Source: Microbacterium enclense (GTDB taxonomy: Bacteria; Actinomycetota; Actinomycetes; Actinomycetales; Microbacteriaceae). Taken from it: 64,000 nucleotides of DNA. The stretch covers positions 1-64,000 of the forward strand of contig NZ_RBZY01000008.1 in NCBI RefSeq assembly GCF_004022425.1, read 5' to 3'. Position numbers and translations under genes: made by a program. The first letter of the stretch is position 1. The number at the start of each line of letters is the position of its first letter. Under the pieces are notes generated by a model, which made no database searches, was not told where the DNA came from, and saw only the letters and a list, made by a program, of their open reading frames with translations. Below are positions 522 through 1,548 of the stretch, in pieces.

Positions 522-597
522 CGCGGCGATCCGGGCGGTCCCGGGCCTCGGTTCATAACCGAAGGCGTGGCGGGTTCGACTCCCGCCGTCGCGTCCA
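522..597 (+). tRNA. tRNA-like sequence with CAU anticodon, atypical, possibly a remnant
   Basis: The 76 bases fold as a cloverleaf ending in CCA. The 7-bp acceptor stem (CGCGGCG with CGTCGCG) has one G-T pair. The anticodon loop TTCATAA sits on a CTCGG/CCGAA stem with one mismatch. The T-arm is perfect (GCGGG-TTCGACT-CCCGC). Against a working tRNA: position 8 is A rather than T, the D-arm lacks the usual A14 and A21, the variable loop is 6 bases, and the discriminator base is T, which is wrong for a Met or Ile CAU tRNA. It may be a diverged tRNA, a pseudo-tRNA, or the 3' half of a tRNA kept as an integration scar. It directly precedes a toxin-antitoxin-like module. Confidence 0.45.
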
Positions 598-629
598 CTT
601 CTTGTCACCAGGTTGGATCGGCGCGCTAC

Positions 630-650
630 GATATACCACGGAGGTATATC
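630..650. promoter_or_regulatory. palindromic operator overlapping the ribosome binding site of the XRE-MNT gene
   Basis: Perfect 8-base arms GATATACC and GGTATATC around a 5-base spacer. The palindrome contains the GGAGG Shine-Dalgarno of the next gene and an AT-rich stretch that could be its -10 box. This is the expected layout for autorepression by the XRE domain encoded just downstream; that binding is inferred. Confidence 0.75.
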
Positions 651-652
651 GC

Positions 653-1123
653 ATGCCCGACCGCTTCGACCCCCGCCGAGCCGGCACGTTAGTGAAGGCC
701 GCGCGCACCGATCGGCACATGTCTCAGGCCGAACTCGCACGCGCAGCCGGCATGAGCCAGCCCCACGTCGCGGCGATCGAATCCGGGCGGAGGATCATCA
801 GTGCCGAGGTTCTGGAGCGCCTCCTCAGAGAAGCGGATTACCGCCCCAGCCTCGCCCTCGAAGAGCACGCGGATGCCATTGTCGAACGGGCGACTCGGCA
901 CGGGCTGCACGATCTGCGCGTCTTCGGTTCGATCGCCACGGGCAGCGACCACTTCACCTCGGACATCGATCTGCTCGTGCGATTGAGCAGCGGGAGGAGC
1001 TACTTCGACCTCGCGATGTTCCAGAACGAGGTCGAGAAGCTCACCGGTTTCCCCGTCGACGTGATCGTGGATGACGCGAACCGACCGTCGTTCCTCGTCG
1101 ACGCCCCGATGGTCGCCCTATGA
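653..1123 (+). CDS. XRE helix-turn-helix fused to MNT nucleotidyltransferase (antitoxin of an MNT/HEPN module)
   Basis: 156 residues. Residues about 10-65 form an XRE-type helix-turn-helix (MSQAELARAAGMSQPHVAAIESG). Residues about 80-150 are a minimal nucleotidyltransferase with the signature GS-x10-D-x-D: G92-S93, D104 and D106, with a likely third acid at D136. In known type VII systems the MntA enzyme adenylylates a tyrosine of its HEPN partner and neutralises it; here the DNA-binding domain would add operon autoregulation. Start chosen at the ATG preceded by GGAGG inside the operator; an in-frame upstream start lacks a binding site. The next gene overlaps by four bases (ATGA), so the two are translationally coupled. 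Activity is inferred from motifs. Confidence 0.85.
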   Translation: MPDRFDPRRAGTLVKAARTDRHMSQAELARAAGMSQPHVAAIESGRRIISAEVLERLLREADYRPSLALEEHADAIVERATRHGLHDLRVFGSIATGSDHFTSDIDLLVRLSSGRSYFDLAMFQNEVEKLTGFPVDVIVDDANRPSFLVDAPMVAL

Positions 1124-1548
1124 CCGACGGAGCGCCGCCCGACTCGCCGCGCCGCTTCGAGCGCATTCCGCGGACGGAGCGCGACGAGTCGTCGACGAAT
1201 ATCGCGCGAGCCAAGCTCGCCGACCGCCTGGAGGCCATCGAGGCCTTTCTCGGCCACGCTGTCGCGGGCGGCCGGGCCGGGTTCACGCGGAACTCCCCGG
1301 CCTACGCTTCCGGCTCGATGGTGGTCATCCGCGCGGCGGCCCTTTTCGAGCTGCGCGAGTTCGACGCCCTGCTCGGCGACGTTCCCAGCGACGTCATCGA
1401 CGCCATCCGCACGATCAGGAACATCGCTGCCCACGGCGGATATCGCGCCATGAACGACGACGTTTTCTGGACGACGCTGACCGTGCACCTGCCGCCGCAC
1501 CTCGAGCAGTGGCGAGCCTCGCTGGGCCAGGCTCACGCGAGAGAGTGA
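1120..1548 (+). CDS. HEPN-domain (HepT-like, DUF86-type) putative RNase toxin
   Basis: 142 residues, start overlapping the stop of the nucleotidyltransferase gene. The HEPN catalytic signature is at R100-x4-H105 (RNIAAH), followed by GGY. Typical HepT toxins carry R-x4-H-x-Y, and that tyrosine is the adenylylation target; here the tyrosine, Y108, is one residue further from H105. The C-terminal NDDVFWTTLTVHLPPHLEQ matches the usual W-x7-LPP-LE tail. The first 25 residues are charged and probably disordered. Family members cleave RNA, including tRNA; the substrate here is unknown. Coupling to an MNT partner supports a toxin role. Confidence 0.8.
   Translation: MTDGAPPDSPRRFERIPRTERDESSTNIARAKLADRLEAIEAFLGHAVAGGRAGFTRNSPAYASGSMVVIRAAALFELREFDALLGDVPSDVIDAIRTIRNIAAHGGYRAMNDDVFWTTLTVHLPPHLEQWRASLGQAHARE

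Follow-up and report, generated by a model that had tools for sequence, protein, structure and literature searches.

Organization of the locus

The window (the whole 64,000-nucleotide stretch of Microbacterium enclense DNA that we analyzed) carries a tRNA-like gene and, just downstream of it, a module of two overlapping genes, predicted to encode an XRE-MNT antitoxin and a HEPN toxin. The features discussed below are the following.

522-593, plus strand: tRNA-like gene with a CAT anticodon, supported by cloverleaf covariation
627-632, plus strand: −10-like hexamer TACGAT, ending on the base with which the operator core TATACC begins
629-651, no strand: inverted repeat with conserved half-sites, the proposed XRE-MNT operator (core 632-648)
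640-644, plus strand: Shine-Dalgarno sequence GGAGG inside the proposed operator
653-1123, plus strand: XRE-MNT antitoxin gene, 156 aa (HTH_3, NTP_transf_2 and structure model)
692-832, plus strand: XRE helix-turn-helix, residues 14 to 60
926-970, plus strand: nucleotidyltransferase motif GSX10DXD, residues 92 to 106
1120-1548, plus strand: HEPN toxin gene, 142 aa, overlapping the antitoxin gene by 4 bases (ATGA)
1303-1305, plus strand: codon of Tyr62, a clade-specific candidate second acceptor
1417-1443, plus strand: motif R100-N-I-A-A-H105-G-G-Y108 with the inserted Gly107, as read from the sequence and from the classification of loci

The original prediction that an XRE domain is fused in front of a minimal nucleotidyltransferase (MNT) domain held up, with HTH_3 matching at an E value of 8.5e-13 and NTP_transf_2 at 3.5e-9. 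The MNT half also matched PADLOC candidate family PDC-S09 (E 1e-20), and the NCBIfam MntA model gave 33 bits, below its cut-off of 60. An AlphaFold model of the protein (pLDDT 85) matched the minimal nucleotidyltransferase 1wot (Z 13.1), the Legionella protein 8xeo (Z 10.0) and XRE regulators. The fusion is not peculiar to this locus: it is common among the actinobacterial relatives that we found. Of the 57 loci taken from class-wide and phylum-wide searches (L048-L104), 16 had profile coverage that reached the XRE domain, and six of these 16 (L060, L063, L065, L067, L069 and L071) scored low and may carry another helix-turn-helix. The related claim that most MNT antitoxins lack a DNA-binding domain needs qualifying, since the Shewanella MNT, which has no predicted domain of this kind, binds and represses its own promoter, as seen by gel shift and a 1.6-fold effect (PMC4621449).

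The MNT gene lies upstream of the HEPN gene, with the same 4-base overlap in 23 of 25 loci. No library model from Pfam, NCBIfam or PADLOC scored above its cut-off against the HEPN protein; the Pfam HepT-like model reached 15.8 bits (cut-off 23.5, E 0.012), which falls short of membership in PF01934 or PF08780. In an AlphaFold model (pLDDT 81), residues 113 to 140 form helix 4. The eight best VIA-align matches of this model were all HepT chains (Z 9.6 to 11.0, 105 to 112 residues aligned, rmsd 2.7 to 3.1), a Z score below 13 counting as weak evidence for helical bundles. Below rank 8, Z was 8.9 or less and three of ranks 9 to 15 were Legionella HEPN chains, and a Foldseek comparison with the PDB returned no match at E ≤0.001. 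A search profile built from 15 relatives of the HEPN protein recovered ordinary RX4HXY HEPNs at all 57 loci L048-L104; a GSX9-11DXD gene was close by at 54 of these. The HEPN gene is under purifying selection in 11 of 12 pairs compared (dN/dS 0.14 to 0.37), the twelfth pair being almost without changes.

A conserved inverted repeat at the start of the XRE-MNT gene

The repeat, CGATATACC-ACGGA-GGTATATCG, consists of two perfect 9-bp arms around a 5-base spacer without symmetry. It spans the end of the −10-like hexamer and the Shine-Dalgarno sequence of the XRE-MNT gene; GGAGG, which falls in spacer and right arm, is separated from the ATG at 653 by 8 bases. The original prediction of a perfect palindrome over the Shine-Dalgarno sequence was therefore correct for the arms and for the coverage of GGAGG but not for the center, and its start, given as 630, was one base late. 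A promoter scan reported no promoter. A candidate −35 element at 602-607 was rejected, as the spacer would be 19 bases long, and we claim none.

With at most one mismatch allowed, the core TATAYCN5GGTATA has one site in the window, against 0.00 expected from shuffles, and TATAYCN5-6GGTATA, matched exactly, has a single site in the 3.4-Mb genome. In all 14 inner-group loci (13 Microbacterium and 1 Agromyces), TATA(C/T)C-N5-GGTAT was found at the same position with a TAnnnT hexamer ending on its first base. Of the three further same-genus loci, L115 and L116 carry the N6 spacing and L004 lacks the operator pattern.

For the wider family we wrote a 12-position pattern, (T/G/C)ATA(C/T)C-N5/6-inverse, post hoc on 46 XRE-MNT starts, and it matched in full 25 of those same 46 start regions and none of 1,707 control windows, 29 of which reached at least 10 positions. 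Among the 31 close ones of the 46, 24 matched in full and all 31 at 10 or more positions. When XRE-type loci were fetched after the pattern had been set, 5 of 19 matched in full and 13 of 19 at no fewer than 10 of the 12 positions. Near-symmetric ATA-type half-sites are present at 46 of 59 XRE-MNT loci. Generic palindrome scoring discriminated weakly (p<0.05 in 11 of 37 start regions versus 4 of 37 upstream control regions) and found nothing in the start regions of L007 and L008 (p 0.92 and 0.98), so the case for an operator rests on the conserved half-sites.

The pair had been described as self-regulated, on the understanding that the palindrome would be conserved with the module in relatives, and the recurrence of its half-sites at XRE-MNT starts agrees with this. 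An XRE autorepressor should combine a helix-turn-helix domain with an inverted repeat that sits at the start of its gene and is conserved along with it, and the sequence shows both here; L004 and a few other loci are without the usual half-sites. Since the proposed operator is unique in the genome and conserved with the module, XRE-MNT looks like a dedicated autorepressor, and we consider autoregulation of the module well supported and very probable.

We compared the recognition helix (XRE-MNT residues 35 to 41) with the half-sites at 59 loci, at 12 of which the helix was not recognized. NxAA, HxAA or HIAG helices mostly go with xATA(C/T)C half-sites, the exceptions being L004, L035, L042, L050 and L051. 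In each of the ten loci whose helix is of the SLAQ type, one arm or both read xATAGC; both arms read TAGTGC in L132 and L134, where the helix is STLAQ. Half-sites of another form explain part of the operator nonmatches. The SLAQ loci lie within one clade, so the shift in helix and half-site counts as one co-change, not many. This joint change of recognition-helix type and half-site, seen in one clade only, may represent a one-residue switch in XRE specificity.

The shifted tyrosine is shared by one clade of HEPN proteins

The HEPN motif reads as originally predicted, with R100, H105 and Y108, and the tyrosine one residue beyond its usual position is a real departure from RX4HXY. The difference is a single Gly inserted between His and Tyr; in a profile alignment with the Shewanella HepT structure 5yep, exactly one residue is missing after His in 5yep. 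Because the alignment is gap-free from Tyr108 to Trp117, the tyrosine keeps the register of helix 4, and it is the link between His and Tyr that is lengthened instead.

Among the HEPN proteins of 113 loci, 70 were HxY, 35 were HxGY and 6 were of the HxGY type with a changed residue: His to Arg in L002, Tyr to Cys in L109 and L140, Tyr to Ser in L111, His to Tyr with Arg to Asn in L141, and His to Arg with Tyr to Cys in L143, where there was also an in-frame stop and, in the frame that was read, no XRE part. L041 is of the HxY type with His changed to Arg, and L044 is a fragment. Dropped from the set were L045 (no HEPN by profile), L105, L107 and L112 (from genomes of the genus and repeating L005, L006 and L007, with identical upstream sequences) and L047 and L128 (the window again).

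For 59 modules we inferred a tree from XRE-MNT together with HEPN, leaving out the Tyr column and any column between it and His; the other 54 of the 113 loci had no XRE part, a low MNT score or a short HEPN. The 38 HxGY-type rows fell on one side of a branch with 98/95 support, which was present in 98% of 200 bootstrap trees. Long branches meeting were flagged for L042 with L145 and for L051 with L083, all of them HxY types. Members of the HxGY clade come from six family groups in the order (f1, f3, f7, f9, f12 and f14), and in the tree the clade adjoins XRE-MNT/HEPN modules that kept HxY. A single Gly insertion would suffice to account for it, and the Gly was presumably gained rather than lost, since HxY is the state of the wider family. 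HxxY is therefore not a common scattered variant, the outcome that would have told against the original prediction, but the usual state of one clade, to which it is confined; judged by sequence, the shift is a property of this clade and not of the gene in the window alone.

The clade has a signature beyond the motif. When 40 members were compared with 61 other sequences (omitting one clade sequence and 11 others of 80 aa or less), the inserted Gly was found in 40 versus 0, Y62 in 38 versus 7, R71 in 40 versus 10 and E77 in 40 versus 11, the helix-2 columns (Y62, R71 and E77) of far relatives being aligned less surely. Position 105 is His in 37 of the 40, and position 108 is Tyr in 36, Cys in 3 and Ser in 1. 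The four members without Y108 all retain Y62 and GSX10DXD. Loss of Y108 may mean that this residue is less strictly needed, that Y62 is a second acceptor or that the genes concerned are decaying. L143 looks broken, and the HEPN dN/dS of 0.175 between L006 and L111, which lacks Y108, speaks against simple decay in that pair. L109, L111, L140, L143, L002 and L141 are natural mutants of Tyr108 or of the RNase His or Arg, most of them beside an intact-looking XRE-MNT.

The module is patchily distributed. Three of the four loci recovered from named genomes are from Microbacterium, in line with the assignment of the window. With the genome of the window included in each count, it was present in 4 of 58 relatives, in 17 of 295 genomes of a genus sample (one, L117, being a different HxY pair), in 18 of 398 of a family sample (one being L045) and, at E ≤1e-8, in 22 of 297 of an order sample (five HxY). 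On the same basis, the profile from 15 relatives found matches in 51 of 394 genomes of a class sample and 52 of 296 of a phylum sample, and all 57 loci read from these searches were RX4HXY. Searches of plasmids gave no HEPN match, and searches of phages gave no XRE-MNT match.

Relation to known HEPN-MNT systems

HepT/MntA of Shewanella oneidensis (SO_3166/SO_3165) resembles the module in having MNT upstream of HEPN, GSX10DXD and Rx4H, and its HepT is similar in fold to our HEPN model (6m6u, Z 11.0; 5yep, Z 9.7), but it has RX4HXY with Y104 and no XRE domain. The Legionella pneumophila HEPN-MNT pair, compared through structures only, resembles the module in its HEPN fold (8xdj, Z 8.8) and in a short MNT that lacks the extra helix at the C terminus (8xeo); unlike the module, it has RX4HXY with Y105, and the text searched describes no XRE domain or operator for it. 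RX4HXY modules of other Actinomycetota (for example L036-L038, L040 and L043) agree with it in the fused antitoxin, in gene order and in the type of half-site found by the start codon, but they lack the inserted Gly, the nearest are without R71 and E77, and their toxins are 23 to 32% identical to that of the window.

The HepT/MntA and Legionella systems AMPylate the Tyr of RX4HXY, two residues after the RNase His (PMC7641770 and PMC11586414). In the Legionella HEPN, RNase activity depends on Q44 and E47 and not on the motif Arg and His (PMC11586414), so reading the motif alone cannot settle the active site of the HEPN in the window. A distant mycobacterial HEPN/nucleotidyltransferase pair showed toxin-antitoxin behavior in M. 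smegmatis (PMC13284704). Makarova et al. described HEPN-RHH domain fusions and, in the relevant section, named no MNT-XRE fusion (PMC2701414). The "Xre-MNT" of PMC8406773 and PMC6266264 refers to Streptococcus suis pairs, and the abstract of the former gives Xre and MNT as two proteins. Our literature search, which took in few subscription papers, found no description of an XRE-MNT/HEPN operon or of RX4HXXY.

Class I HEPN-MNT pairs have been defined by a HEPN beside an MNT, GSX10DXD, RX4HXY and membership in Pfam PF01934 or PF08780 (PMC7641770). The module has the adjacency and GSX10DXD, and in its RNIAAHGGY the Rx4H part is present but the whole is RX4HXXY; the published motif definition of a class I HepT therefore does not cover it. 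It appears to work like a HEPN-MNT system of type VII in the wide sense, to which a HepT-like fold in the structural comparison, weak evidence for a helical bundle, would assign it.

Proposed mechanism and alternatives

We propose, with moderate confidence in the whole, that the module is a divergent chromosomal HEPN-MNT (type VII, HepT/MntA-like) toxin-antitoxin system. The HEPN protein would be a toxin with RNase activity. The MNT half of XRE-MNT would disarm it by adenylylating a Tyr next to the RNase motif, Y108 being the most likely one, while the XRE half would bind the inverted repeat, probably as a dimer, and repress the operon. Loss of antitoxin would then free the toxin and derepress both genes. 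That the module is a toxin-antitoxin system of some kind seems to us highly probable, and its patchy presence (17 of 295 genus genomes, one of another kind) favors this. Transfer of AMP to HEPN by the MNT half is probable; the roles of RNase toxin and AMP donor are assigned by analogy with the published systems (PMC7641770 and PMC11586414). By the same analogy AMPylation at Y108 is likely, and we lean towards Y108 as the main site. Against the proposal stand the absence of RX4HXY and the clade members in which position 108 is Cys or Ser (4 of 40) or position 105 is not His (3 of 40). The sub-cut-off scores of the library models for the HEPN and of the MntA model, the low Z scores and the empty Foldseek comparison also count against it.

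The same changes allow other readings. The modified residue could be Y62, at the start of helix 2, with the inserted Gly marking an active site that was remodeled and gained R71 and E77. The signature counts and the retention of Y62 and GSX10DXD in the four members without Y108 fit this, as does the dependence of Legionella RNase activity on helix-2 residues and not on Rx4H (PMC11586414). We nevertheless regard it as unlikely: position 108 is still Tyr in 36 of 40 members, the published acceptors are tyrosines beside Rx4H, L143, one of the four, looks broken, and Y62, R71 and E77, which lie in columns that are hard to align in far relatives, may be structural. A related and rather doubtful idea is that one Gly insertion founded a clade with a rebuilt active site, in which Rx4H moved relative to the modified Tyr, R71 and E77 became fixed, and Y62 serves as a second or replacement AMP acceptor. 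If it were true, members without Y108 or H105 would remain active toxins controlled by adenylylation, which would amount to a target-site switch within one toxin-antitoxin family.

Retention of GSX10DXD in 41 of 41 clade members, even where Y108 is gone, and the action of published relatives through AMPylation (PMC7641770 and PMC11586414) make it very unlikely that XRE-MNT neutralizes HEPN by tight binding in the style of type II systems, with the nucleotidyltransferase motif and Y108 only structural or of partial help, even though a DNA-binding antitoxin with a conserved operator is the type II pattern and Y108 has been naturally lost in 4 of 40 members. Least probable, and by our estimate quite improbable, is the reading in which an XRE regulator has been domesticated, with HEPN-MNT as its nontoxic cofactor pair; the loss of the RNase His or Arg in a few members (L002, L141 and L143) would suit it, but the patchy presence, the single occurrence of the window's form of operator in the genome and the retention of Rx4H in most clade members speak against it.

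On the proposed toxin-antitoxin reading with Y108 as acceptor, the distance between acceptor Tyr and His changed once, and HxY sister modules and Tyr-less natural members provide a ready test of how strict the geometry of AMPylation is. A HEPN-MNT operon with a recognizable DNA-binding domain and a defined putative operator also makes control by derepression directly testable.

The tRNA-like gene and possible neighboring insertions

The tRNA-like gene upstream of the module has the 7/5 arrangement of acceptor and T arms, and its D arm is unusual in having 5 bp and a 4-base loop. ARAGORN, run on the window, did not call it, and the Rfam tRNA-Sec model gave 36.6 bits, below the gathering score of 47. 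In 18 copies its cloverleaf had 96.5% of cells paired, against 42 to 52% when slid; five pairs had changed on both sides, and the outermost anticodon-stem pair failed in 12 of 18. It is possibly a noncanonical tRNA. At E <1e-10 it was found in 30 of 35 same-genus genomes (that of the window included) and in only 5 of 189 in a family sample.

At 11 of the 16 loci from the genus, this gene is followed by the module within about 320 bases. We searched 14 module loci for a second copy of the tRNA-like 3′ end beyond the HEPN gene; one turned up at p 0.02, no more than chance, leaving site-specific insertion of the XRE-MNT/HEPN module unsupported. In four same-genus genomes (L118-L121), which like L122 were picked for their repeats or matches, a repeat of the tRNA-like 3′ end (23 to 35 bases, 89 to 100% identical) lies 1.3 to 9.2 kb away. 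Between the repeats lie an AbiEii-type gene in L119 (PF08843, E 3.8e-13) and an NTP_transf_8 gene in L121 (E 2.7e-8). In L122 a Fic gene adjoins the tRNA-like gene, with no repeat found. The site has the appearance of a hot spot at which toxin-antitoxin-like cassettes integrate.
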